Shown piece after piece: positions 2,073-23,845 of a stretch of DNA of 42,409 nucleotides. The notes beneath the pieces were generated by a model that was not told the origin of the DNA, ran no database searches, and saw only the letters and a list, made by a program, of their open reading frames with translations. A program made the translations under genes and the position numbers. The DNA comes from Candidatus Oceanisphaera merdipullorum (GTDB taxonomy: Bacteria > Pseudomonadota > Gammaproteobacteria > Enterobacterales > Aeromonadaceae). Where the stretch lies: NCBI GenBank assembly GCA_018883865.1, contig JAHLFI010000035.1:1-42409 (forward strand). Direction: 5' to 3'. The first letter of the stretch is position 1; each line of letters starts with the position of its first letter.

Positions 2073-2088
2073 CGGCACGTAATTTGCA
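2073..2088 (+). promoter_or_regulatory. Sigma-54 type promoter for fliM operon
   Basis: CGGCACGTAATTTGCA matches the -24/-12 consensus TGGCACG-N4-TTGCA in all but the first base, with the required 12-base distance between the GG (2074) and GC (2086) elements. The predicted start near 2099 gives a leader of about 58 bases before fliM. The LafK activator encoded at 9882-11297 is the natural partner. Confidence 0.8.
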
Positions 2089-5426: not shown

Positions 5427-6548
5427 AGCAGCGCCCAAGATAAGAGCGAACAACCTACCGAGCAGAAGAAGCGCAAGGCTAGACGCGAGGGGCAAATTGC
5501 CCGTTCTAAGGATCTTAACAGCGCCGTGCTCTTGCTGCTGGGCGGCATGATGATTTGGTGGCAGGTAAGCGCACTGAGTCAGTTTTTTAAAGAAATTTTT
5601 ATCTTAAATATGGAACTGCCGGTCGAAGCCACCCGCGAGCCAGAATTAATGCTGCGCTATTTAGAGCAATCCTTGCTGGCGGCCATGTGGGCCTTAATGC
5701 CGTTATTTTTAACGCTGTCGCTCTTGTTGCTGGCCTCTGGCTTGCTGCCGGGCGGGCTTATTTTGTCGCTTGATAACCTGCAGTTTAAGGCCTCGCGCCT
5801 AAATCCCTTGTCCGGCTTAAAGCGCATGTTCTCCAAGCAGACCTTGGTCGAGCTGCTTAAATCCATGCTAAAAGTCGGTTTGCTGGGCGGTGCGCTGGCC
5901 GGCATCTTAAACAGCCAATGGGAGCGCTTGGTGTTCTTGGGCCGCCAACCTTTGTATATCGGCTTTAGCCAAGGCTTAGGTATGTTGGTGTTGGCGATTT
6001 TGGTGTTGGCCGGCGTTTTGGCCTTGGTGGCGGCCATCGATGTGCCGTTTCAGCGTTGGTCCATGCTGCAAAAGCTAAAGATGACCAAGCAAGAAGTGAA
6101 AGAAGAGCACAAAAATAGCGAAGGCCGCCCCGAGATCAAACAGCGCATTCGCCAAATTCAATTTCAAATGGCTCAAAGCCGTATCGAGCAGCGCGTGCCC
6201 GAGGCGGACGTGATCATCCTCAATCCAACCCACTATGCGGTGGCCATTAAATACGATGCCAACCGTGCCGAGGCGCCGTTTGTGGTGGCCAAGGGCTGTG
6301 ATGCTTTGGCGCTGCGTATTCGTGACTTGGGCTATAAACACGGCTGCGAGGTGATCACCTTACCCGCGCTCACCCGTGCTATTTATTATTCGACTCGGGT
6401 CGACCAGCAAGTGCCGGCGGGCCTCTACAGCGCCGTGGCTTATGTGCTGACCTACGTCTTGCAACTAAGAGCGCATCGCGATGGCCGAGGCCGCGCGCCA
6501 GGCGACTTGCCCGAATTTACTATTCCTAAAAAATACCAACATGAATGA
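5415..6548 (+). CDS. flhB: Flagellar export switch protein FlhB
   Basis: 377 residues. A basic N-terminus (DKSEQPTEQKKRKARREGQI) is followed by four membrane helices between residues 35 and 215. The cytoplasmic domain carries the self-cleavage motif NPTH at 270-273. FlhB switches export specificity from hook to filament substrates after cleavage between N270 and P271. The linker has the usual MTKQEVKEEHKNSEGRPEIK segment. The start at 5415 is the third ATG of a tandem repeat; I see no convincing ribosome site, so re-initiation after fliR is likely. The stop overlaps the flhA start (ATGA). Confidence 0.95.
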   Translation: MAEQSSAQDKSEQPTEQKKRKARREGQIARSKDLNSAVLLLLGGMMIWWQVSALSQFFKEIFILNMELPVEATREPELMLRYLEQSLLAAMWALMPLFLTLSLLLLASGLLPGGLILSLDNLQFKASRLNPLSGLKRMFSKQTLVELLKSMLKVGLLGGALAGILNSQWERLVFLGRQPLYIGFSQGLGMLVLAILVLAGVLALVAAIDVPFQRWSMLQKLKMTKQEVKEEHKNSEGRPEIKQRIRQIQFQMAQSRIEQRVPEADVIILNPTHYAVAIKYDANRAEAPFVVAKGCDALALRIRDLGYKHGCEVITLPALTRAIYYSTRVDQQVPAGLYSAVAYVLTYVLQLRAHRDGRGRAPGDLPEFTIPKKYQHE

Positions 6549-8635
6549 GGTTCACAGTGAATTTTAAAAGCCTTAGCCGACCTTATCTAGCGGTGCCGCT
6601 GCTGCTGCTAGCGGTGCTGGCCATGGTTATCTTGCCGCTGCCACCTTGGCTGCTCGATGGCCTGTTTACCTTCAATATAGTGTTGGCGATCTTAGTGCTG
6701 CTGGTGGCCGTATCGGCTCGCCGCCCGTTGGATTTCTCGGTGTTCCCGACTGTCTTGCTGGTTGCCACCTTGTTGCGCTTAACGCTGAACGTCGCCTCTA
6801 CGCGAGTGGTGTTATTGCACGGCCATGAAGGCCCAGGTGCCGCGGGTAAAGTAATAGAGTCGTTCGGTGAGGTGGTGATCGGCGGCAACTATGTGGTGGG
6901 CATGGTGGTGTTTGTGATCTTGATGATCATCAACTTCGTGGTGATCACCAAAGGCGGCGAACGCATCTCTGAAGTGGGTGCACGCTTTACGCTGGATGCA
7001 CTGCCCGGCAAGCAAATGGCCATTGATGCGGACTTAAATGCCGGCGCCTTAACTCAAGAGCAAGCGCGGGTGCGCCGCCAAGAAGTGGCCAGCGAAGCCG
7101 ACTTTTATGGCTCCATGGACGGTGCCTCTAAGTTTGTACGCGGTGACGCTATTGCCGGCCTGTTGATCCTGTTTATCAACTTGGTCGGCGGTTTTAGTAT
7201 TGGTATATTCCAATATGACTTAAGTGCCGGTGAAGCCTTTCAGCTCTATGCCTTGCTGACTATCGGTGATGGTTTAGTCGCGCAAATTCCTTCCTTGTTG
7301 TTGGCCACCGCCGCCGCCATTATCGTGACTCGCGTAAACGACGCCAATGACATGTCGACGCTAGTGGGCCAGCAATTATTGGCCTCGCCACGCGTTGTTT
7401 ATACCAGCGCGGCCGTGATGCTGATCCTAGGTCTCGTGCCTGGCATGCCGACCTTGGTGTTCTTATTATTTGCCGCGGTATTAGGCTATGTAGCCTGGCG
7501 ACTCAAGCCCGCCGAGGGCACGCCAGACACCGCGCTTGAACAAGCTGAACTGCTGCTGGCCGAAGATAAGGCAGCAGAATCCACTCTCAGCTGGCAAGAC
7601 TTACCCTATGTGGACTTGCTAACGGTAGAGCTGGGTTATCGCTTGGTGAGCTTGGTGGACGATGCGCAAGGCGCTCCGTTATTAGGGCGCATTCGTGGGG
7701 TGCGCAAGAGCTTGTCGGAGCAAGCGGGCTTCTTACTGCCCGAGGTGCGAGTGCGCGATAATTTACAGCTGGCGCCCCAAGAATATCGGGTGAAGCTCGC
7801 CGGCGTAGTGATGGCCTCGGGCCAAGCCGACAGCGAGCGCATGCTGGCCATCAATAAAGGCCAAACGTATGGCGTGATTGACGGTGAATTGACCCAAGAT
7901 CCCGCCTATGGCATGCCGGCGGTGTGGATTGCCACCACCAACAAACCTAAGGCACTCAACCTCGGCTATGCGGTGGTGGATGCGGCTACTGTGATGGCCA
8001 CCCATGTCAGTAAATTAATGCGTGAGCACTTGGCCGAACTGCTGGTGCTGGATGATGTGTCTCAGCTTAGCGAGCGCTTACACAGTCAAGCCCCTAAGCT
8101 TGCCGAAGCCTTGAGTGGTGCCGTGCCGAGCGTGTTGCAGCTGAAAATTTATCGCTACTTACTGAAAGAACAAATCAGCTTGTCGGATGTGCAAACCATA
8201 GCCACCGCCTTGGTCGAGGGCGCGGAAATTACTCAAGACCCTGTATTGCTGGCGGCGGATGTGCGCTGTGCACTGAAGCGCGTGATAGTGCGCCAAATTA
8301 TGGGTGAGCGCGGTGTGCTTAGCGCCTTTACGTTGGTGGATACTTTAGAGCAAACACTGCTCAACGCCTTAAACCAAGCTCAGCAGCAAAACCCGAAAAC
8401 CAGTATTGACAGCTTCCCCGTTGAGCCGACGCTCTTGTCACAATTACAGCAAAAAATGCCGTCTGTGGTGGAGAATTTACAGGAGCAGGGTTTACCGGCT
8501 GTGCTGTTGGTGATGCCGCAATTAAGGCCCTTATTGGCTCGCTACGGCGCCGTGTTTGCTAAGGGCTTAAAAGTGCTGTCGTACAATGAAATCCCCGAGC
8601 ATATTCAAATCGATGTGGTGGGGACGCTGGGTTAG
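6545..8635 (+). CDS. flhA: Flagellar export apparatus protein FlhA
   Basis: 696 residues, normal for FlhA. The first 330 residues hold about eight membrane helices and the strongly conserved FHIPEP block (DFSVFPTVLLVATLLRLTLN, then GDAIAGLLILFINLVGG). The rest is the cytoplasmic nonameric ring that receives chaperone-substrate complexes (for example MATHVSKLMREHLAELL). FlhA uses the proton motive force to drive export. The start ATG at 6545 overlaps the flhB stop. It is the last gene of the fliM operon; a 400-base regulatory region follows. Confidence 0.96.
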   Translation: MRFTVNFKSLSRPYLAVPLLLLAVLAMVILPLPPWLLDGLFTFNIVLAILVLLVAVSARRPLDFSVFPTVLLVATLLRLTLNVASTRVVLLHGHEGPGAAGKVIESFGEVVIGGNYVVGMVVFVILMIINFVVITKGGERISEVGARFTLDALPGKQMAIDADLNAGALTQEQARVRRQEVASEADFYGSMDGASKFVRGDAIAGLLILFINLVGGFSIGIFQYDLSAGEAFQLYALLTIGDGLVAQIPSLLLATAAAIIVTRVNDANDMSTLVGQQLLASPRVVYTSAAVMLILGLVPGMPTLVFLLFAAVLGYVAWRLKPAEGTPDTALEQAELLLAEDKAAESTLSWQDLPYVDLLTVELGYRLVSLVDDAQGAPLLGRIRGVRKSLSEQAGFLLPEVRVRDNLQLAPQEYRVKLAGVVMASGQADSERMLAINKGQTYGVIDGELTQDPAYGMPAVWIATTNKPKALNLGYAVVDAATVMATHVSKLMREHLAELLVLDDVSQLSERLHSQAPKLAEALSGAVPSVLQLKIYRYLLKEQISLSDVQTIATALVEGAEITQDPVLLAADVRCALKRVIVRQIMGERGVLSAFTLVDTLEQTLLNALNQAQQQNPKTSIDSFPVEPTLLSQLQQKMPSVVENLQEQGLPAVLLVMPQLRPLLARYGAVFAKGLKVLSYNEIPEHIQIDVVGTLG

Positions 8636-8728
8636 GTTACGGAACGGCACCCAAAAAAAATTGGTGTTCACTTGGAGCTATTCATACAGATTCGCAAGTG
8701 CTTTATGTTAAGAAAACAGGGGTTTATG

Positions 8729-8760
8729 GTGGTTATTTAAACGTTTAAGCGAATAACCAC
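8729..8760. promoter_or_regulatory. Nested palindrome, possible operator upstream of the riboswitch
   Basis: GTGGTTATT (8729-8737) and AATAACCAC (8752-8760) are perfect 9-bp inverted arms around a second perfect palindrome, TTAAACGTTTAA (8737-8748). There is no T-tract after it, so a terminator is unlikely. The site lies about 100 bases before the riboswitch and could bind a dimeric regulator of the motY-lafK transcript. No regulator is identified. Confidence 0.45.
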
Positions 8761-8834
8761 TGTAAATGTATGTTTATAGTTGAAAATAGAGCGTTTTTTT
8801 TAGTCAAATACTGTCGCACCAAAATACTGTTGCT

Positions 8835-8918
8835 GATGACAAGGGCAAACTGAGTGAAAATTCAGGACGCAAAGCTTCCGGTCTAAGGGATAAATAATCC
8901 TACGACAGCGGGGCCGCC
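8835..8918 (+). promoter_or_regulatory. Cyclic di-GMP-I (GEMM-I) riboswitch
   Basis: The stretch follows the conserved plan of class I c-di-GMP riboswitches. GGGCAAAC (8843-8850) leads into stem P2, CTGAGT-GAAA-ATTCAG (8850-8865), with a GAAA tetraloop. Next come GGACGCAAAGC (8865-8875), CCGG-tCTAA (8878-8885) and a second hairpin, GGAT...ATCC (8888-8900). It ends with CAGCGGGG (8907-8914). The GCAAA and GACGCAAAGC blocks and the CTAA receptor resemble the Vibrio cholerae Vc2 aptamer closely. It lies on the coding strand about 120 bases ahead of motY-lafK, so it should sense c-di-GMP and control the lateral motility regulator. Whether ligand turns expression on or off cannot be told. Confidence 0.9.
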
Positions 8919-8922
8919 AAAG

Positions 8923-8951
8923 CAGGTAATCCCTTCGGCTTACGCCACCTG
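8923..8951 (+). other. Stem-loop between riboswitch and motY
   Basis: CAGGT (8923-8927) pairs with ACCTG (8947-8951), and GTAA (8926-8929) can pair with TTAC (8940-8943) over a loop containing CTTCGG. It directly follows the aptamer and may be part of the expression platform. Confidence 0.5.
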
Positions 8952-8997
8952 TACATCCTTTCTCAGCGTTACCCAAATTGCTTGGCCTTGAGCCGAG

Positions 8998-9019
8998 TCG
9001 GCATCGTTTTGCCGATTTT
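8998..9019 (+). terminator. Putative intrinsic terminator in the riboswitch expression platform
   Basis: TCGGCA (8998-9003) pairs with TGCCGA (9010-9015) over a six-base loop and is followed by TTTT. It ends 20 bases before the motY start. A hairpin plus T-run at this place fits a transcriptional on/off switch governed by the aptamer. The stem is short, so it may instead act on translation. Confidence 0.5.
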
Positions 9020-9039
9020 AAAAATTAAGTTGAATCTTG

Positions 9040-9885
9040 ATGTTGTTTACAAAATTCCGCGCAAGCTTTGCGATAGGGATGTTATTGGTCAGCGCGCAGG
9101 TATGCGCGACGACCATGACCGCTATCGATGAAGCTAAGTGGCAGTTCCACCAAGCGCAAAATCTATGTGTGCTTGAGCATCAGGTGGCTGAGTTAGCCCT
9201 AGCACGCTTTAGTAGCGCCCAAGGGGGCAGCTTGGCCTTTGAGCTTAAGTGGCTAACAGCCAGCAACCAAGTTGGCCAAGCGGTGTTGAATTCACGTAGC
9301 GCGCCGTGGCGAGGCGTCGAAACCGCACGTTTAGCCCAAGGAGCGTGGCAACAACAGGTATTGCGCTTTAATGGCGCAGCAGATGCGGCACTTAATGCGT
9401 TAGTGACAGGCCGTTGGCTAGACGTGACTGAGCTTGGCGATGGCCGCCAATTAGTGCTGCCCAGCGTCTATCTTCAGCAGCCTTATCAAGACTTTCGGTT
9501 GTGCCGTGGCGAAACAGGCATTGAGCGCTCGGCGGACGGCACTCAGTTCACACTGCATTTTCAAACCGGCGCCAAACACCTCACCCAAAACCAAGCTCAG
9601 CAACTAAACCAATTGGCCAAGCAGGTCAGCCAACAGCCGCAGGTTAACCGATTACAGATTGACGCCTACACAGATAACAGAGGGGGGGCTGAGCTCAATT
9701 TACGTGTGTCGCAAAACCGCGCCCTGCAAGTGGCCAACCAACTGCGTCGCACCCTTCCCGTATTGCCGATGGACATGCATGCCCACGGTCAAGCTTCGTC
9801 CGTAAGCGATAACAACACCCCAGCTGGGCGTTATCAGAATCGACGGGTCACCATAACGTTACTTCAAGTGGAACAAGCATTATGA
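9040..9885 (+). CDS. motY: Flagellar stator-associated protein MotY (OmpA-type C-terminus)
   Basis: 281 residues from ATG 9040 (a TTG one codon upstream is possible). The N-terminus is a signal peptide (KFRAS, then hydrophobic to VCA). The N-terminal MotY domain contains SLAFELKW, APWRG and the YQDFRLC end. The C-terminal OmpA-like peptidoglycan-binding domain (about residues 170-275) shows IDAYTDNRGGAELNLRVSQN and NNTPAGRYQNRRVTI. MotY forms the T-ring that holds stators around the rod in Vibrio-type motors. In lateral systems it stands beside lafK, as here, where the genes overlap by four bases. The leader carries a c-di-GMP riboswitch; there is no clear ribosome site. Confidence 0.85.
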   Translation: MLFTKFRASFAIGMLLVSAQVCATTMTAIDEAKWQFHQAQNLCVLEHQVAELALARFSSAQGGSLAFELKWLTASNQVGQAVLNSRSAPWRGVETARLAQGAWQQQVLRFNGAADAALNALVTGRWLDVTELGDGRQLVLPSVYLQQPYQDFRLCRGETGIERSADGTQFTLHFQTGAKHLTQNQAQQLNQLAKQVSQQPQVNRLQIDAYTDNRGGAELNLRVSQNRALQVANQLRRTLPVLPMDMHAHGQASSVSDNNTPAGRYQNRRVTITLLQVEQAL

Positions 9886-11297
9886 AAACTGATCCCCAGT
9901 CTCCCCAGCTGTGGTTGATATCTCGTGATGGCGTATCGGATCTTTGTTATGGCGCCTTATTGGGTGCGGGTTATCAGCTCAAACAAATGGCCACGTTCAC
10001 CGCTCCCGAGCACGGCTTGCCTCGCGTTATTTTAATAGATAGCGACCTCGGCTCGTCGTTTCTTGAACAAATTCGTTATGCGACTACTCGCTTCCCTAAG
10101 GCGGTGGTGATGGCGATAGTGGATCACGGTGAAAGTGCCCTCACCAGTGAGGCGCTGCGTGCCGGTGCCTGTGATTACGTGCTTAAGCCTTATCAACCCC
10201 GCCAATTGCTGCGCATCTTAGGCCAAAGTCTGGCGCTCACCCAAAGTACCGGCAACATGGTGGTGCGCTCGCGCGCCGGCTTGCAAGTGCTGCAACTGGC
10301 GTACCGCGCTGCACAAACCAATGCGGCGGTATTAATTGGCGGCGAGTCAGGCACCGGCAAAGAGTGCTTAGCGCAATATATTCATCAGGTTTCAGACCGC
10401 GTAAAGGGGCCGTTTGTGGCAGTTAACTGCGCGGCCATTCCAGAAAGTATGTTGGAAGCCGTGCTCTTTGGTTACAACAAGGGCGCCTTTACTGGTGCTA
10501 GCCAAAGCCAGCCCGGCAAGTTTGAGTTGGCTAACGGCGGCACCTTATTGCTCGACGAAATCGCCGACATGCCGCTGAACTTGCAAGCTAAGCTGTTGCG
10601 GGTGTTGCAAGAAAAAGAAGTGGAGCGCTTAGGCAGCCACCAAAAAGTGGCGTTAAACGTGCGTATCGTCGCGGCCTGCAATAAAGACCTGCGTGAAGCC
10701 GTTAATGCCGGTGAGTTTCGTGAAGATTTGTTTTATCGCCTCGATGTATTGCCCTTAAACTGGCCACCACTGCGTGAGCGGTTAGAAGATATCTTGCCGC
10801 TGGCGCAGCATTTTTTAACGCGCTATGGCCAAGGCGAGCAGTTCCACCTTAGCGCTCAGGCTGAGCGCAGCCTGCTGGCCTATGCTTGGCCGGGTAATAT
10901 TCGCGAGTTAGAAAACGTCATTCAGCGAGCCCTGATCTTAGCCCGTGGCGCCATTATCGATGTGGTCGATCTTATGCTGCCGCAAACCGAGTCCTGTGTG
11001 GTGGCCACGCCTTTGGTGCCTGCTCATACTGCTGCAACACATACAGCTACTCCCCCTACCGGAGTGGGTCACACGGCCAATGCCGCCCCCATGCCAACCC
11101 AAATGCCAGCAGGCCAAGGTTTGCAAGCCAGCCGCCAGCGCGCCGAATTTGATTATGTGTTGCACATTTTACAGCAACATCAAGGCCACAGAACCCGCAC
11201 CGCCGAAGCGCTAGGCGTCACTACCCGCGCCTTGCGTTACAAACTAGCGACCATGCGCGAGCAGGGTATCGACATCGACCGAGTAATAGGAAACTAA
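9882..11297 (+). CDS. lafK: Sigma-54 dependent lateral flagellar regulator LafK
   Basis: 471 residues. The N-terminal part (1-120) looks like a receiver domain with an aspartate at 53 (VILIDSD) and a lysine at 102 (VLKPY), though the pocket is not canonical. The AAA+ domain has Walker A GGESGTGK (153-160), the sigma-54 contacting GAFTGA (201-206) and Walker B TLLLDEI (221-227). A proline- and threonine-rich linker leads to a Fis-type helix-turn-helix (HRTRTAEALGVTTRALRYKL). LafK is the class II activator of lateral flagellar genes in Vibrio. It is co-transcribed with motY (ATGA overlap) and followed after one base by fliE. Its likely targets are the -24/-12 sites at 2073 and 23427. Confidence 0.9.
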   Translation: MKTDPQSPQLWLISRDGVSDLCYGALLGAGYQLKQMATFTAPEHGLPRVILIDSDLGSSFLEQIRYATTRFPKAVVMAIVDHGESALTSEALRAGACDYVLKPYQPRQLLRILGQSLALTQSTGNMVVRSRAGLQVLQLAYRAAQTNAAVLIGGESGTGKECLAQYIHQVSDRVKGPFVAVNCAAIPESMLEAVLFGYNKGAFTGASQSQPGKFELANGGTLLLDEIADMPLNLQAKLLRVLQEKEVERLGSHQKVALNVRIVAACNKDLREAVNAGEFREDLFYRLDVLPLNWPPLRERLEDILPLAQHFLTRYGQGEQFHLSAQAERSLLAYAWPGNIRELENVIQRALILARGAIIDVVDLMLPQTESCVVATPLVPAHTAATHTATPPTGVGHTANAAPMPTQMPAGQGLQASRQRAEFDYVLHILQQHQGHRTRTAEALGVTTRALRYKLATMREQGIDIDRVIGN

Positions 11298-11298
11298 T

Positions 11299-11619
11299 AT
11301 GACCGCCTCTATCGCACATCAACAACAGGCCATGTTGGTCAAACTAGACCAAATGCAACATCAAGCCAGCAGCGGCGACATAGCGCCCGCCGCCGATCAA
11401 GGCTCGTTTGGCGAGTTAATGAAAAGCACGGTGCAAAGTATTAACAGCGAGCAGGTGCAGGCCTCAAATTTAATGGCGGCGGTAGAAACCGGTGCCAGTG
11501 ACGATTTAGTGGGCGCCATGTTGGCCAGTCAAAAAGCCGGTTTAAGTTTTTCCGCATTAGTACAGGTGCGTAATAAGTTAGCCAGTGCCTTCGATGACAT
11601 AATGCGCATGCCGCTGTAA
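11299..11619 (+). CDS. fliE: Flagellar hook-basal body protein FliE
   Basis: 106 residues. FliE joins the MS ring to the rod and is the first rod subunit exported. The C-terminal FliE signature is clear: SINSEQVQASNLMAAVETG, LVGAMLASQKAGLSFSALVQ and a final VRNKLASAFDDIMRMPL. It starts one base after lafK, so it is expressed with the regulator. Confidence 0.94.
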   Translation: MTASIAHQQQAMLVKLDQMQHQASSGDIAPAADQGSFGELMKSTVQSINSEQVQASNLMAAVETGASDDLVGAMLASQKAGLSFSALVQVRNKLASAFDDIMRMPL

Positions 11620-11628
11620 GGAACCCAG

Positions 11629-11664
11629 ATGGCTGAAGTAAACAAGATGGCTGAAGTAAATGGA
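11629..11664 (+). repeat. 18-bp tandem duplication at the fliF start
   Basis: ATGGCTGAAGTAAACAAG (11629-11646) is followed by ATGGCTGAAGTAAATGGA (11647-11664): 15 of 18 bases agree. It gives FliF a doubled MAEVN leader and two in-frame start codons. Confidence 0.85.
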
Positions 11665-13362
11665 ATAAGTACGGCAAGTTTGCCGCTGCGTGCAGGCTTA
11701 AATCAGAGCAAAGCACGTTGGCAGCGTTTGTCGGCACACCATAAGCAAGTAATAGTGCTGAGCAGCTTAGCGGTGGTGATCGCCCTAGTAGTGGTTAATC
11801 TTTTGTGGCAGAGCGGGCGCAGCTATGTGCCTTTATATGGCAAGCAAGAAGTGTATGACCAAGGTCAAATAGTGGCGGCATTGGAGCAGGGTGAAGTGGC
11901 CTTTCGCTTAGACCCCCACAGCGGTCAAATCTTGGTGGAGCAAGAGCAGTTAGGCGCGGTGCGTATGATGATGGCAGCCCGCGGCGTTAAGGCCCAGCTG
12001 CCGTCTGGCTTAGAAGATTTAAGCCTAAATACCGGCATGGGCACCAGTCAGTTTATGGAAACCCGCCGCTATCGCCATGCATTAGAAGGCGAGCTGGCGC
12101 GCACCATAATGGCGTTGAACTGGGTGCGCCAAGCGCGGGTGCATTTGGCCATGCCAGAGCGCACCTTATTTATTGGCCGCGCCGAGCAAACCCCGACCGC
12201 GTCTGTGATGTTAGAAGTGGCGATGGGCCATGATCCTGACTTGGCTCAAGTGGAAGGCATAGTGAACTTGGTGGCCGGCAGCGTGCCCGGCATGACCAAT
12301 GACAAGGTCTCCGTCATCGACCAAAACGGCCAATTACTCAGCGATCAATTATCCAGTAGCGGCATGAGCAAAGGCCTCAGCCAACGCCAAGTTGAATATG
12401 GCCGCCAGCTTGAGCAGCAATTAGCTCAACGGGCTAAAGACATGCTGTATCCCATTTTAGGCGCCAATAACTTTCGGGTGCAGGTCACCGCCGAGCTGGA
12501 CTTTAATGCGGTGGAAGAAACACGCGAAAGCCTAGATCAAACCCCGACCTTGCTGCGTGAAACAGGCAGTGAGCGCAACAGCAGCGACAACTTAGGGATA
12601 GGTATTCCCGGCGCCCTGACCAATACGCCGCCGCAAGCCAATGCGGAGGGAGAACCAAACAAAGACACCCCCATCAATAAAAATAACCGTGAGCAACACG
12701 AATTTCAGCGCCAGTATGAAAGTGGCCGCTCCGTGGTGCATACCCGTTATCAAACGGGTCGAGTGAGCCAATTAAGCGTATCAGTGCTGCTCAACAATGC
12801 CATGGCACCCGAAGGCGGCTGGCCCGAAGTGCAATTAACCAACATGGGCCAGATGGTACAAGGTGCGGTGGGCTTTAACGGTGAGCGAGGTGATCAGTTT
12901 TCGCTCACCAGTTTCGATTTTAGCCCACAAGCACTGCCCAGCGAATTTGCCAGTGAGCTGGCCTGGTGGCAAGTACCCGAATGGCAGGCTTATGCCCGTT
13001 ATTTGTTAGGCGCGCTCATGGTGCTGGCGTTGCTAATTTTTGGCGTGCGCCCCCTTATTCGCCATCTCAACACCAATCAAAAAGCTGCCGCCTTGCGTGA
13101 ACTGCAGGCCGAGGGTGTTGCGGTGAGCGGCGCCCTTGGCGACAAGGCCGCGCTGTTAGATAGTGCGGCTCAGGCACTGAAAGCGCCGGAGCGAGTGGGC
13201 CCGCATACGGTATTGCCTTGGGATCAAGACGAACAAGAATGGCAATTGCCCCCACCGGGCAGTGAGCTAAAAGTGCAAGTTACCCATCTGCAATTATTGG
13301 CCGAGCGGGAAACCGAGCGGGTAGCGGAAGTTATTAAACACTGGATTAAAGACCATGACTGA
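11629..13362 (+). CDS. fliF: Flagellar MS-ring protein FliF
   Basis: 577 residues. The first membrane helix (VIVLSSLAVVIALVVVNLLW, about 42-61) is followed by ring-building motifs, including VPLYGKQEVYDQGQIVAALE and the conserved HLAMPERTLF. A low-complexity middle precedes the second helix (RYLLGALMVLALLIFGV, about 450) and a cytoplasmic tail that binds FliG. ATG 11629 has AAGGAA (11618-11623) six bases upstream. The first 18 bases are a tandem duplication (MAEVNK-MAEVNG), so a second in-frame ATG exists at 11647. It overlaps fliG by eight bases. Confidence 0.96.
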   Translation: MAEVNKMAEVNGISTASLPLRAGLNQSKARWQRLSAHHKQVIVLSSLAVVIALVVVNLLWQSGRSYVPLYGKQEVYDQGQIVAALEQGEVAFRLDPHSGQILVEQEQLGAVRMMMAARGVKAQLPSGLEDLSLNTGMGTSQFMETRRYRHALEGELARTIMALNWVRQARVHLAMPERTLFIGRAEQTPTASVMLEVAMGHDPDLAQVEGIVNLVAGSVPGMTNDKVSVIDQNGQLLSDQLSSSGMSKGLSQRQVEYGRQLEQQLAQRAKDMLYPILGANNFRVQVTAELDFNAVEETRESLDQTPTLLRETGSERNSSDNLGIGIPGALTNTPPQANAEGEPNKDTPINKNNREQHEFQRQYESGRSVVHTRYQTGRVSQLSVSVLLNNAMAPEGGWPEVQLTNMGQMVQGAVGFNGERGDQFSLTSFDFSPQALPSEFASELAWWQVPEWQAYARYLLGALMVLALLIFGVRPLIRHLNTNQKAAALRELQAEGVAVSGALGDKAALLDSAAQALKAPERVGPHTVLPWDQDEQEWQLPPPGSELKVQVTHLQLLAERETERVAEVIKHWIKDHD

Positions 13363-14383
13363 GTCCTCTACGGCGCCCACAAGCAGCGCCCTTACCTTAG
13401 CGCAAACTGAAAAAGCCGCCGTGGTGCTCTTAAGCATGGGCGAAGGGGCGGCGGCTCAAGTATTGCAACGCCTAGACCGCGACGACGTGCGTAAAGTCAC
13501 TAGCGCCATGGCGGCACTGGCCGGCGTGTCGGCAGATGCGGCGCGCGGCACCTTACAGGAATTTTTTGAACTCTATCGTCAGCAAAGTGGCATACATTCC
13601 GCCTCTCGCGAATATCTAGAGCGCACGCTGGACTTAGCACTGGGCGATAAACTTGCCCGTGGTTTGCTGGACTCCATGTATGGCGACGTAGTGCGCCGCG
13701 AAATTCAGCGTCTGCAATGGGTACAACCCGAGATCTTGGCGCGTTTCTTACAACAAGAGCACCCACAGATGCAGGCGGTGATCTTGGCCTTCTTGCCTGC
13801 AGACTCCGCCGCCGCCGTGTTGTCGCTGCTACCGAACGACAGCCACGATGAGCTGTTATTGCGGGTGGCCAACCTCAGCGAAGTCAGCGAGTTTGTGGTG
13901 GTGGAATTAAAAGCCGCACTGACTCGCTGCCTCGATTTTGTGGCCCATAACGCCGGTGCGCGGGTGGATGGCGTGCGCCAAGTGGCCGATATTGTTAACC
14001 GTTATCAGGGTAATCGTGGTCAGTTAATGGAACTGCTGAAGTTGCACAATGCCCACACCGCCGGTGAAATTGAACGCAACATGTATGACTTCACAAGCCT
14101 TGCTCGCCAGAGCGAAGAAACCTTGCAGCGCATAGTGCAAGAGCTGCCGATAGAGGTGCTGGGCTTGGCGCTAAAAGGCGCAGAAAGCCAAGTGCGCCGC
14201 GTGATGCTGGAAGCCATGCCCAAGCGCATGGCTCAGCAGATGGAGCAAGATATGCTGCGCCAAGGCGCGGTGGCGGTAAGTAAGGTTGAAAATGCCCGCC
14301 TTGAGGTGATGACCTTAGTGCGCGAGCTGGTCGAGCAGGGCGAGCTGGAGTTCCAGCTTTATGAAGAACAGGTGGTGAGTTAA
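13355..14383 (+). CDS. fliG: Flagellar motor switch protein FliG
   Basis: 342 residues, all helical, with the three-domain layout of FliG. The N-domain starts with EKAAVVLLSMGEGAAAQVL. The middle domain has the EHPQ motif (FLQQEHPQMQAVILAFLP, about residue 130). The C-terminal torque domain includes MYDFTSLARQSEETLQRIVQ and the charged ALKGAESQVRRVML ridge. FliG couples stator force to the rotor and binds FliF and FliM. It overlaps fliF at its start and touches fliH at its end (TAATG). Confidence 0.95.
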   Translation: MTESSTAPTSSALTLAQTEKAAVVLLSMGEGAAAQVLQRLDRDDVRKVTSAMAALAGVSADAARGTLQEFFELYRQQSGIHSASREYLERTLDLALGDKLARGLLDSMYGDVVRREIQRLQWVQPEILARFLQQEHPQMQAVILAFLPADSAAAVLSLLPNDSHDELLLRVANLSEVSEFVVVELKAALTRCLDFVAHNAGARVDGVRQVADIVNRYQGNRGQLMELLKLHNAHTAGEIERNMYDFTSLARQSEETLQRIVQELPIEVLGLALKGAESQVRRVMLEAMPKRMAQQMEQDMLRQGAVAVSKVENARLEVMTLVRELVEQGELEFQLYEEQVVS

Positions 14384-15186
14384 TGAAGTCTGAATTCTCT
14401 CATAATGGCCCCGTCGCCCACCGCCCCACTGCGGATCGACCCGCAACCAGCCGTCTGGCTTCTCCCAACGTGCGCCGTTATCGTTTTCCGTCTTTATATG
14501 GTGAAGAGGGGGCGCCTGAGTCGCCCAGTGATGAGCTGCAAGAGCAGCAATATCAGCACAATCTTGAGCAAGGTTTTCAAGAAGGCTTAGAGCAAGGCCG
14601 CGAAGCTGGCTTTCAAAAAGGCCTTGAACAAGGCCGCCAGCAAGGGTTGACCGAAGGCTTAGAGCAAGGACGACTGCAAGGACGACTGCAAGGACAAGCC
14701 CAGTTGCGCGAGCTGCAAAGCAGTTTGGCCGACGAATTACGCCACTGGCAAGCCAGCGCCGAGCAACAATGGCAACAGCTGTCCATGTCGGCGCTCAACC
14801 AACAACAACAGCATATTTGCCAACTGGTTGAGCAAGTGGCGCGCCGCGTTATTCGCTCCGAGCTGACCATGAATCCCCAGCAAGTGTTGGCCATAGTCGA
14901 AGAGGCGCTGCAAGGCATTGACGCCCGCGTAAGCGAGCTGCAGCTGTTTATTAGCCCTGAGGATAAGCAGCGCTTAGCCGACATTGGCATCACCGAATGT
15001 CGTGGTTGGGCCTTGCACTTGGATGCCAAACTCGCGCCCGGCGATTGCCGAATTGAGACCGAAACCTTAACGCTGGAAGCACTCACCGAAGAGCGGTTGC
15101 AAAAAGGTATCGCTAAGGTGAGTCAGAGCTTAAGCGAGCAAGAGCTTAAACCAGAATTTAAACCAGAGCTTAAGCAAACGCCATGA
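14383..15186 (+). CDS. fliH: Flagellar assembly protein FliH
   Basis: 267 residues. Residues about 60-105 form the EQGxxxGxxxG repeat helix typical of FliH (LEQGREAGFQKGLEQGRQQG and so on), which dimerises and links the FliI ATPase to the C-ring. A 12-bp unit, GGACGACTGCAA, is duplicated at 14668-14691 within this helix. The C-terminal half is the FliI-binding domain (VARRVIRSELTMNPQQVLAI, ITECRGWALHLDAKLAPGDC). The end has a small KPE-rich repeat. The stop overlaps fliI by four bases. Confidence 0.9.
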   Translation: MKSEFSHNGPVAHRPTADRPATSRLASPNVRRYRFPSLYGEEGAPESPSDELQEQQYQHNLEQGFQEGLEQGREAGFQKGLEQGRQQGLTEGLEQGRLQGRLQGQAQLRELQSSLADELRHWQASAEQQWQQLSMSALNQQQQHICQLVEQVARRVIRSELTMNPQQVLAIVEEALQGIDARVSELQLFISPEDKQRLADIGITECRGWALHLDAKLAPGDCRIETETLTLEALTEERLQKGIAKVSQSLSEQELKPEFKPELKQTP

Positions 15187-16556
15187 GCCAACTTGAGCAG
15201 CGCTTACAACAGGCGGGCCAAGCTCTTTCTGAGGAGCCAGAATCCGGCTTTGGCCAGATTTATGGTCGCCTGCTTAAAGTTACCGGCAGCCTGCTCGAAG
15301 TCTCAGGTTGCCGGCTGGGTATGGGCCAGCGTTGTTTTATCGAAACCGTTGACGGGAGCGATCAAGGCGCAAAGCGCGGCGAGCTCGAAGCCGAAGTGGT
15401 GGCGCTGGATCGCGAGCAAGCCCTGTTATTACCGCTCACCACGGCGCAGGGTTTATTTACTGGCGCTCGGGTGCGACCTTGCTTAAATGGCTCCCAGCTT
15501 AAGGTCTCTGATCAACTGTTGGGCCGCATCGTGGATGGCTTATTACGCCCACTGGATGGTGGCCCTCTGCCAGATGGCCAGCCGCTGCCTTGGCACACGC
15601 CCATTCCTAATCCCTTATATCGCCGTCGCGTGAATGAACCGCTAGACGTAGGCGTGCGCGCCATTAATGCGCTGCTCACGCCGGGCAAAGGCCAGCGTTT
15701 AGGTCTGTTTGCCGGCCCGGGTGTGGGCAAAAGTGTGCTGCTCGGTATGATGGCGCGCTACACCCAAGCGGACGTAGTGGTGGTGGGCTTAATCGGTGAG
15801 CGGGGGCGTGAGGTACGCGAATTTATCGACGACTGCTTAGGCGAAGCGGGGCGTGCCAAGGCGGTGGTGATTGCGGCTCCTGCCGATCAAAGCCCGCTGC
15901 TGCGTGCCCGCGCCGCTCAAGCTTGCCACAGAGTGGCGGAGCATTTTCGCGACCAAGGTAAAGACGTACTCTTGCTGATGGACTCGCTCACCCGCTTTGT
16001 GCAGGCGCGGCGCGAAATTGGTCTCGCGGTCGGCGAGCCACCGGTGGCGCGCGGCTATCCACCCTCTGCTTTCAGTGCATTAACCGAATTGGTGGAGCGC
16101 GCCGGCAATGGCGTGCAAACACAGGGCAGCTTAACCGCCTTTTATACGGTATTAGCGGAAGGTGACGATCAACAAGATCCGGTGGCGGATGCGGCGCGCG
16201 CCATTCTCGATGGTCACGTGGTATTAAGCCGCCAATTGGCCGAGCAAGGCCATTATCCGGCCATCGATATCGGCGCTTCTATTAGCCGCGTGATGAGCAA
16301 GGTGACCAGCCCTGAGCATTTAGCGCAAGCGGGTATCTGTAAACGCTGGTTTAGTCACTATCAACAAGTGCGTGAACTGTTACCGCTGGGCGGTATTCAG
16401 TCCGGCAAGAGTGCGGAAACTGACGAAGCCATCGCCCGCTACCCAGACTTACAGCTGTTTTTACAACAATCAGAACACGAGCCGGTGAGCTTTGAACAAA
16501 GCTTGAGCGATCTCGCCGCTGTCACCGGAAGCCCTTCGGGCAGCCATACGCTTTAA
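15183..16556 (+). CDS. fliI: Flagellum-specific ATPase FliI
   Basis: 457 residues, homologous to the F1 beta subunit. Walker A is AGPGVGKS (177-184), followed by VVVGLIGERGREVREFIDD and Walker B VLLLMDSLTR. The SRVMSKVTSPEHL end is typical. The hexamer unfolds and dispatches export substrates and is held by FliH. The final codons contain the repeated element GCCCTTCGGGCAGC (16531-16544), so the C-terminal SPSGSHTL may be shaped by that repeat. It ends the motY-lafK-fliE-F-G-H-I operon. Confidence 0.96.
   Translation: MSQLEQRLQQAGQALSEEPESGFGQIYGRLLKVTGSLLEVSGCRLGMGQRCFIETVDGSDQGAKRGELEAEVVALDREQALLLPLTTAQGLFTGARVRPCLNGSQLKVSDQLLGRIVDGLLRPLDGGPLPDGQPLPWHTPIPNPLYRRRVNEPLDVGVRAINALLTPGKGQRLGLFAGPGVGKSVLLGMMARYTQADVVVVGLIGERGREVREFIDDCLGEAGRAKAVVIAAPADQSPLLRARAAQACHRVAEHFRDQGKDVLLLMDSLTRFVQARREIGLAVGEPPVARGYPPSAFSALTELVERAGNGVQTQGSLTAFYTVLAEGDDQQDPVADAARAILDGHVVLSRQLAEQGHYPAIDIGASISRVMSKVTSPEHLAQAGICKRWFSHYQQVRELLPLGGIQSGKSAETDEAIARYPDLQLFLQQSEHEPVSFEQSLSDLAAVTGSPSGSHTL
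16531..16544 (+). repeat. Dispersed GCCCTTCGGGCAGC element, copy 1 (end of fliI)
   Basis: A GCCC-ttc-GGGC mini-hairpin followed by AGC lies just before the fliI stop. The same sequence occurs after flgF, and a one-base variant occurs after flgI. Confidence 0.6.
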
Positions 16557-18405: not shown

Positions 18406-19269
18406 TTACTTTTCCTTAACACCCGTTACCACAATATCCTTCGCTTTTACATCATCACCAAAGGTTGGTTTTAACGTTTTTTCATATGCATCATGGAAGA
18501 AGTTTTCTTTCCCTAGTTTTTCTAATTCATCATTTAACCAATTTAATAATTCCTTGTTTCCTTTTTTTACAGCTGGAGCAATAAAGTCAAGTTCTCCAAT
18601 CTCCTTAATGCCTATAGTGAAATCTGGGTTTTCTTTTCCCCAAGCAAAAAGTAAAGTATTATCATGTGCTAATGCAGCACCCCTACCGTCTTTTAAAGAC
18701 TCGAATGCTTCTGTATTTTGGTCGTATTTTACTTGCTCAATTTCAGGATGATTTTTTGTAAAATAAGCTTCAGCAGTTGTTCCTTTGTTAACCAGCAATT
18801 TCTTGTCTTTTAATTGATCGGTTGATGTGATTTCACCACTTTTAGGTGACACAACACCTATTGACACTTTCATGTAAGGATTGGCAAAGTCTACTTGCTC
18901 AGCTCTTTCTGGTGTTACTGTGAAGTTTGCTAATGTAATATCGACTTTTCCCGCTTTTAGAACATCAACACGACTTTGCGCTTCAGTCAAAACGAATTCT
19001 ACTTTTGATTCATCGCCTAGTAAATCCTTTGCAATTCTTTTCCCTAGCAAAATATCATAACCTTGATTGTCGCCATTTTCATCAATATAACCAAATGGTG
19101 GTTTATCACTGAATACGGCGATACGTAACTTACCTCGCTCTTTAATTTCTTCAATTGTCGATTTAGTTTTCTCTTTTTCTACAATATCATTGCCTGCAGT
19201 ACTTTCACCGCATGCAGCTAAAGCCAATGTTAAAATAAATACACTGGCCATTGATATAGTTTTTTTCAT
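18406..19269 (-). CDS. CjaA-like amino-acid (probably cysteine) ABC transporter binding lipoprotein
   Basis: 287 residues from ATG 19269, which has GGAG eight bases upstream; ATG 19275 is also possible. A lipoprotein signal ends in LALAAC with the lipidated cysteine at 20. The rest is a family 3 solute-binding protein: KRGKLRIAVFSDKPPFGYID, VDITLANFTVTPERAEQVDF, LLVNKGTTAEAYF and ALAHDNTLLFAW. These blocks closely recall Campylobacter CjaA, a cysteine-binding protein, so cysteine uptake is the best guess; another polar amino acid is possible. It is last in a minus-strand operon and clearly more AT-rich than the flagellar genes, which suggests transfer from a low-GC donor. Confidence 0.85.
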   Translation of the reverse strand: MKKTISMASVFILTLALAACGESTAGNDIVEKEKTKSTIEEIKERGKLRIAVFSDKPPFGYIDENGDNQGYDILLGKRIAKDLLGDESKVEFVLTEAQSRVDVLKAGKVDITLANFTVTPERAEQVDFANPYMKVSIGVVSPKSGEITSTDQLKDKKLLVNKGTTAEAYFTKNHPEIEQVKYDQNTEAFESLKDGRGAALAHDNTLLFAWGKENPDFTIGIKEIGELDFIAPAVKKGNKELLNWLNDELEKLGKENFFHDAYEKTLKPTFGDDVKAKDIVVTGVKEK

Positions 19270-19284
19270 TTTCATTACTCCGTC

Positions 19285-23426: not shown

Positions 23427-23442
23427 TGGCACGGATCTTGAG
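23427..23442 (+). promoter_or_regulatory. Sigma-54 type promoter for flgB operon
   Basis: TGGCACGGATCTTGAG keeps all of TGGCACG and the TTG of the -12 element, with GG (23428) and G (23440) 12 bases apart. The start expected near 23453 lies 30 bases before flgB. It fits LafK control of the rod and hook genes. Confidence 0.78.
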
Positions 23443-23482: not shown

Positions 23483-23845
23483 ATGGCATTGGGGCTGGAA
23501 AATGCACTGGGCATACATCCGCATGCATTATCGCTCAGGATGGACAGAACACAATTACTGACCAGTAATTTGGCTAATGTCGATACCCCAGGTTATCAGG
23601 CGCGCGACATCGATTATGCGACAGTGTTGCAACAAACAGCGCGCTCACTCGAGCAAGGCGGTCAGGGTGGTCCCAAAGCTGAGTCCTTATATCGTACGCC
23701 TTACCAGCCGTCGCAAGATGGTAACACGGTGGAACTGTCGGTGGAGCAAACGGCCTTTGCCGAAAATGCCATGGACTTTCAAACTAGCCTGACTTTTTTG
23801 AACATTAAATTACGTGGCCTAAATCAAGCCATAGAAGGACGTTGA
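23483..23845 (+). CDS. flgB: Flagellar proximal rod protein FlgB
   Basis: 120 residues. It has the rod signature LTSNLANVDTPGYQARDIDY near residue 30 and the C-terminal NAMDFQTSLTFLNIKLRGLN helix. AAGGA lies six bases before ATG 23483. It begins the flgB-to-flgJ operon behind a sigma-54 promoter. Confidence 0.95.
   Translation: MALGLENALGIHPHALSLRMDRTQLLTSNLANVDTPGYQARDIDYATVLQQTARSLEQGGQGGPKAESLYRTPYQPSQDGNTVELSVEQTAFAENAMDFQTSLTFLNIKLRGLNQAIEGR

Follow-up and report, generated by a model that had tools for sequence, protein, structure and literature searches.

A predicted class I c-di-GMP riboswitch before motY-lafK in Candidatus Oceanisphaera merdipullorum is conserved with the lateral flagellar regulator gene lafK

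We found that the leader of the motY-lafK genes of Candidatus Oceanisphaera merdipullorum contains an aptamer of the c-di-GMP-I (GEMM-I) class, and that an aptamer of this class stands at the same place in most of the related LafK-type loci examined. The DNA analysed, which we call the window, is a whole stretch of 42,409 nucleotides. The match to Rfam family RF01051 lies at 8834-8921 of the forward strand and covers the full length of the model, 1-87 of 87 (cmscan, 81.9 bits, E 9.3e-15), against a gathering score (GA) of 35 bits. At the curated Rfam thresholds, which we used, it is the sole match in the window, cmscan having dropped one overlapping match of the same clan at the same site; it is also the sole RF01051 match in the organism's own genome assembly (2.89 Mb, 165 contigs, 93% complete). 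The core of the class is present in the model alignment: GGCAAAC, the GAAA tetraloop, GACGCAAAGC, the tetraloop receptor and GCGGGG...GCC. An earlier note on this DNA, made from the letters alone, had proposed a class I c-di-GMP riboswitch before motY-lafK and suggested a covariance search with RF01051. The score, the Pfam domains and the reading frames bear this out in class, place and target; the blocks that it had named (GGGCAAAC, the GAAA loop, GACGCAAAGC and CCGGTCTAAG) are all there, and its coordinates place the aptamer rightly except for the start, 8835, which is one base off. We concluded that this element is very likely a c-di-GMP-I riboswitch acting on motY-lafK, and we infer that it binds c-di-GMP. 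The aptamer class is already well known; the lafK target is new and conserved. Compared with the RF01051 class, the window aptamer fits the model throughout, while its target is here motY-lafK and its expression platform is, in the organism's own genus, without a recognisable terminator.

The leader is 404 bases long (8636..9039, forward strand) and extends from the end of flhA at 8635 to the motY ATG at 9040. The genes around it are the following:

6545-8635: flhA, directly upstream of the leader (list of open reading frames)
9040..9885, + strand: motY, lateral flagellar T-ring protein (PF18393 MotY_N and PF00691 OmpA, both above cut-off)
9882..11297, + strand: lafK, sigma-54-dependent activator of lateral flagellar genes (PF00158, 231 bits; protein tree)
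11299..16556, + strand: fliE, fliF, fliG, fliH and fliI (Pfam, close spacing)

The motY start is taken at ATG 9040, the mechanical open reading frame opening at TTG 9037. motY and lafK overlap at their stop and start (9882-9885), and fliE begins at 11299, right after lafK. From their close spacing, fliEFGHI are likely in one transcription unit with motY-lafK. We assigned the activator to LafK from its position beside motY and fliEFG of a second flagellar system and from its place apart from FlrC in the tree described below. The 5' part of the window holds fliM/fliN-like genes and genes of the fliP, fliQ, fliR and flhB types, and the 3' part holds genes of the FlgN, FlgA, rod, hook, flagellin, FliD, FliK, FliL, sigma and MotA types. 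Another contig of the same genome carries a second flhA, 52% identical to that of the window, and a contig end carries an FlrC-like fragment with 77% identity to the polar-type protein of a same-genus genome. This means that the cell very likely has two flagellar systems, the window holding the lateral one. The genome encodes 27 GGDEF domains, which could supply the c-di-GMP signal. Inside the lateral cluster, between the FlgN- and FlgA-type genes, there is a gene for a solute-binding protein of amino-acid transporter type (18406-19275, minus strand), adjoined by three more minus-strand reading frames that continue to 21371.

The earlier note had suggested a search for the same leader in relatives with lafK, and such a leader does recur: of the 49 LafK-type loci examined that have DNA upstream of (motY-)lafK, 43 carry an aptamer there that scores above the curated cut-off. 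Loci were sorted by the genes behind the regulator: in the loci counted as LafK-type, FliE has about 42% identity or more and FliF 44% or more to those of the window, and in the FlrC-type loci scanned FliE has 30-39% and FliF, where it is in the locus, 28-33%. The aptamer precedes (motY-)lafK in all seven loci of the genus of the window (g1) and in all those of the groups f16 (4/4), f6 (1/1), f7 (9/9) and f2 (3/3); it precedes lafK in 18 of the 19 Aeromonas loci and in the one g5 locus, and is found before lafK in neither of the two g3 loci and in none of the three loci of f22, which is probably the genus Vibrio. In one f7 locus (L171) and two f2 loci (L154, L157) the family found at this place is c-di-GMP-I-GGC, RF03167; unlike these, the window copy is best matched by RF01051. 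In Aeromonas, motY was not found at this place and the aptamer is directly before lafK, which ties it to lafK and not to motY. Two g4 leaders (L128, L126) match the leaders of Aeromonas lacus (L031) and Aeromonas taiwanensis (L035) without a difference over 618 bases, which identifies f1, the group that holds g4, as the Aeromonas family; the organism of the window is a member of this family too. A locus of the Aeromonas genus, L136, has a decayed aptamer before lafK at 1051-1141 (28.3 bits, below the cut-off, with changes in the core), the sole sub-threshold aptamer in a permissive search over eight negative or truncated loci. The g5 locus L124 carries tandem c-di-GMP-I aptamers before lafK, at 828-919 and 1057-1149, 137 bases apart.

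The aptamer was found in none of the ten FlrC-type (polar) loci scanned (L040-L042, L044, L046, L048, L179-L182), and in none of four lateral loci of Shewanella (three) and Parashewanella (one), which are counted apart from the 49. Six of ten named loci scanned were positive (two Aeromonas, three Rheinheimera and one metagenome bin), and the negatives were three Shewanella lateral loci and one FlrC-type locus. L113 and L158 do not count among the 49, as the contig stops short of the leader in both; the aptamer of L113 lies on another contig, L002. From one LafK search the best 30 of 45 matches were made into loci; the other 15 comprise 14 matches at 45-54% identity and one from the Aeromonas genus (G065) at 60%, and a genome-wide search of three genomes among them gave no RF01051 match in G005 and G018 and none near the lafK place in G023. 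A wider LafK search retained 23 of 247 genomes at a strict threshold, which weaker LafK copies would escape, and the larger groups were sampled; 16 (10 + 6) of the 80 loci in another listing were scanned.

We then compared this distribution with a LafK/FlrC protein tree of 51 chosen rows, where the FlrC rows make up one side of a fully supported branch. LafK splits into a clade of seven rows lacking the aptamer (f22 with Shewanella and Parashewanella) and a clade of 38 rows, 35 of them with the aptamer and three without it, namely L136, where it has decayed, and the two g3 loci. Presence of the aptamer changes three times over the tree, against 13.8 times in shuffles. With a support of 90/64 for the branch holding all rows with the aptamer, it is likely rather than proven that the aptamer was gained a single time (or lost at the root of the clade that lacks it). 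The likely history would be one gain, or one basal loss, followed by later losses, and this lineage pattern, with its decayed and tandem copies, would make a good case of a riboswitch kept and lost with its target.

For the expression platform, we aligned eight same-genus leaders from eight species, including that of the window. The features discussed below are, in window coordinates:

8780..8816, + strand: block TTG...TTTTTTTTAGTCAA, candidate promoter or operator (same-genus alignment)
8830..8834, + strand: predicted 5' strand of P1, TTGCT, complementary to 8921-8925
8832..8844, + strand: 5' strand of the anti-aptamer helix, GCTGATGACAAGG, which holds the last bases before the aptamer core (invariant in the eight leaders)
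8921..8925, + strand: predicted 3' strand of P1, AGCAG, overlapping the next hairpin (complementarity)
8922..8952, + strand: hairpin of GCAGG (8922-8926) with CCTGT (8948-8952), exclusive with P1 (pairs invariant in 8/8)
8957..8967, + strand: anti-aptamer strand CCTTTCTCAGC (invariance, complementarity tests, forced-state energies)
8981..8997, + strand: hairpin H1, CTTGGC/GCCGAG (one pair kept through two-sided changes, others through one-sided changes)
8998..9015, + strand: hairpin H2, TCGGCA/TGCCGA, 8998-9003 with 9010-9015 (one pair kept through two-sided changes)

The strand CCTTTCTCAGC is the longest invariant run between the aptamer and the ATG (11 columns, the next longest having 6, with 45 of 130 columns invariant), and it can pair with the 5' flank GCTGATGACAAGG, which is invariant as well. 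The RNAalifold consensus of the eight leaders pairs nine bases of 8834-8844 with CCTTTCTCA at 8957-8965, and the anti-aptamer helix formed in this way encloses P2, P3 and the GCAGG/CCTGT hairpin. The CAGGT/ACCTG stem that the earlier note had pointed out is present here, at 8923-8927/8947-8951. P1, predicted as TTGCT/AGCAG in the window, has equivalent stems with differing pairs in the leaders of other lineages, as read by eye rather than counted formally. Because GCAGG overlaps the 3' strand of P1, the leader can adopt only one of two sets of pairs at a time: one combines P1 and the ligand-binding fold, the other the anti-aptamer helix and the GCAGG/CCTGT hairpin. As sequence features, these invariant exclusive pairings were observed just as the aptamer, its place and its conservation with lafK were. 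The pairs of the anti-aptamer helix never vary in the genus and thus display no covariation there; three leaders of f16 retain this helix through two-sided changes, GATAAGG/CCTTATC against GAAAAAGGC/GCCTTTTC.

When the anti-aptamer helix was forced, the energy lay 0-5 kcal/mol above the free minimum in 8/8 leaders, and 6.1-12.7 kcal/mol below that of the forced state with P1 and aptamer, again in 8/8, the P1 state being penalised by the bases kept unpaired. The affinity for c-di-GMP is such that ligand binding could cover a gap of this size. Folded without constraints, the window leader has a minimum-energy structure that gives neither state cleanly. Over 23 representative leaders, a helix score points to an excess of downstream complements to the aptamer 5' strand (z 3.8, reached in 0 of 200 dinucleotide shuffles); taken singly, four of the 23 leaders reach p<0.05 and those of the own genus lie at 0.095-0.13. 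When 11 segments were compared across 27 leaders, the aptamer 5' strand came first (z 2.9), the other segments ranging from -2.4 to +1.9, which shows that the segment test is noisy. The plain duplex energy of the aptamer 5' strand against the leader was significant in two of 35 leaders (L034, L138) and not in the other 33. A pyrimidine block, CCTTTCTC (CCTTTCTT in L149), recurs in L146-L149 and in the same-genus leaders; in the L146-L149 family it is not the best-scoring anti-aptamer strand, and it may bind a protein.

The hairpin TCGGCA/TGCCGA followed by TTTT had been put forward in the earlier note with a hint at a terminator. The hairpin, our H2, does exist and covaries in the eight species, but the hint did not hold: the TTTT after H2 does not recur across the eight same-genus leaders, and a scan for hairpins followed by a T-run found none in seven of these leaders, that of the window included; the single match, in the eighth, is around H1, not H2. 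A pattern scan of 8600-9100 for terminators gave one minus-strand site only. As the T-run does not recur and the terminator scan is negative, H2 was rejected as an intrinsic terminator for the own genus. Some Aeromonas leaders have a hairpin with a T-rich tail, which is not uniform over the group; we therefore claim no terminator there, one being possible in some of these leaders. At the other end of the leader, TTG and most of TTTTTTTAGTCAA are invariant in 8/8 same-genus leaders, and in several of the eight species the block 8780-8816 reads as an inverted repeat, GTTGA...TCAAC. The pattern scan gave no match to the sigma-70 consensus in 8600-9100, and no sigma-54-like site was found in the motY leader at up to two mismatches.

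On balance, we favour the following account: the riboswitch sets the expression of motY-lafK-fliEFGHI, likely OFF at high c-di-GMP, through an exchange between P1 and the anti-aptamer helix. At high c-di-GMP the aptamer would bind its ligand and P1 (TTGCT/AGCAG) would form, while at low c-di-GMP 8832-8844 would pair with CCTTTCTCAGC (8957-8967), enclosing the GCAGG/CCTGT hairpin. The bound state would free the C-rich, G-poor stretch CCTGTA...CCTTTCTCAGC, which has 10-14 C and 5-7 G in about 40 bases. Such a strand freed ahead of the start codon suggests Rho loading, and Rho-dependent termination is our first guess for the output step, a tentative one. We know of no description of a Rho-loading site exposed by an anti-aptamer strand for the c-di-GMP-I class. 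It can also be speculated, with considerable doubt, that the aptamer was gained once, atop the lateral hierarchy, by an ancestor common to most LafK systems of the order, and that it has been kept from then on as the main control over the change from swarming to sessile life and back; its anti-aptamer strand would make a Rho-loading site accessible once the ligand is bound.

We are fairly confident of the OFF direction, which we prefer because of two precedents. The phosphodiesterase PdeB of S. putrefaciens stimulates lateral flagella, partly via lateral flagellar gene expression (PMC8203827, PMC9061725), so that lower c-di-GMP goes with more lateral flagella, and the best studied flagellar case, Cd1 before the C. 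difficile flgB operon, is an OFF switch (PMC6366702). Both speak against an ON switch, by which c-di-GMP would raise motY-lafK expression, for example for lateral flagella at first surface contact; such a switch seems unlikely to us, although ON switches of this class exist (Bc3-5, PMC4759541) and the anti-aptamer state could be the repressed one, no terminator fixing the direction. A translational switch would fit either direction: the ligand would alter access to the motY start, with lafK coupled to it through their overlap (9882-9885). The short A/T-rich start region near the covarying H1 and H2 is in keeping with this, as is the overlap itself. However, H2 ends 24 bases before the ATG, the consensus has no conserved pairing to the start region, single-sequence folds vary from leader to leader, and the first gene differs in Aeromonas, whose leaders have no motY in that place; a search of the leader for clear occlusion of a Shine-Dalgarno sequence found none. 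We regard translational control as possible, on the doubtful side.

FleQ has the motif KExxxRN after Walker A, and LFRS; the LafK sequences examined show instead KExLA(Q/R)(Y/F/H) after Walker A and no LFRS. The RNA may thus be the main c-di-GMP input at this point. It seems improbable, accordingly, that c-di-GMP acts on LafK itself as it does on FleQ and FlrA, the riboswitch being a minor or extra input, even though LafK falls, among solved structures, into the FleQ/FlrA/FlrC group and the authors of the S. putrefaciens work credited FlrA2 (PMC9061725). Finally, the aptamer could be a relic which still folds and no longer matters in this organism, as the decayed copy of L136 (28.3 bits) and the two g3 loci without aptamer might lead one to think. 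This is very hard to reconcile with the 81.9 bits of the window copy and with a flank and an anti-aptamer strand that lie outside the core and are nevertheless invariant in eight species, and we give it hardly any credence.

Under the OFF switch through P1 and anti-aptamer exchange, the motY-lafK-fliEFGHI operon would be the entry point of the lateral-flagellum hierarchy, set by the riboswitch. High c-di-GMP would lead to less LafK and hence to less sigma-54-driven transcription of the later operons, and sessile cells would lack both LafS and lateral flagella. Swarming is lost in a lafK mutant of A. hydrophila, in which the fliM, flgB and lafA promoters are also less active; the same paper describes the fliM promoter as class I and not activated by LafK (PMC5013049). 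Two sites of the window are of interest in this respect:

2073..2088, + strand: sigma-54-like -24/-12 site before the fliM-like gene (2157), one mismatch
23427..23442, + strand: sigma-54-like site ahead of the rod-protein gene at 23483, which is flgB judging from its place, two mismatches

The window contains 53 sigma-54-like sites for 40.3 expected, which is barely above chance, so that single sites mean little. The chain from riboswitch to LafK, to the later operons and to LafS, that is, the gating of the whole cascade, is plausible, and the part of it that we observed is the anatomy of the first link. One RNA probably helps to decide whether lateral flagella are built. If it works, it ties the second messenger directly to the first swarming regulator and provides a c-di-GMP input independent of the polar-flagellum regulators.

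Work on c-di-GMP and lateral flagella has mainly been done where this RNA is missing or, in the texts accessible to us, unmentioned, as in Shewanella, and the same holds for Vibrio; Aeromonas, a main LafK model, carries the RNA. Like the window element, Cd1 is a c-di-GMP riboswitch of class I placed before an early flagellar operon with a regulator gene, sigD in C. difficile and lafK here. Cd1, however, has a terminator at its end and serves peritrichous flagella (PMC6366702); the regulator under the window element is a sigma-54 activator, and of the two systems of a dual-flagellum cell the element covers only the lateral one. MotL and FlrA2 of S. putrefaciens involve the same signal and the same organelle, but they are protein receptors (PMC8203827, PMC9061725), as is FilZ of Pseudoalteromonas, which acts through the polar flagellum (PMC10304486). 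The effect of c-di-GMP on the lateral flagella of S. putrefaciens was credited to FlrA2 and MotL (PMC9061725), which means that c-di-GMP control of laf needs no riboswitch.

In their accessible text, PMC8203827 and PMC10304486 do not contain the word "riboswitch", and PMC9061725 uses it for a reporter plasmid only. In V. parahaemolyticus, lafK lies within an operon repressed by OpaR, for which the accessible text names no riboswitch, and a class II c-di-GMP riboswitch, strongly repressed by OpaR, lies on chromosome 2 at a locus other than lafK (PMC4406679). No riboswitch at a lateral flagellar gene is named in the accessible parts of PMC9061725, PMC4406679, PMC10269520, PMC8506656, PMC10653909 and PMC6618264. 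The literature searched, which included few subscription papers, gave no report of a riboswitch linked to lafK; the first description of GEMM (2007) could list the site in its gene tables. For A. hydrophila, a 2019 review mentions riboswitches that precede putative fimbrial and chitinase genes (PMC6366702). Among the relatives, other c-di-GMP-I aptamers precede genes whose products, judged from their N-terminal letters only, are a chitin-binding-like secreted protein (L024), membrane sensory proteins (L019, L020) and secreted proteins of no recognised type (L012, L016).
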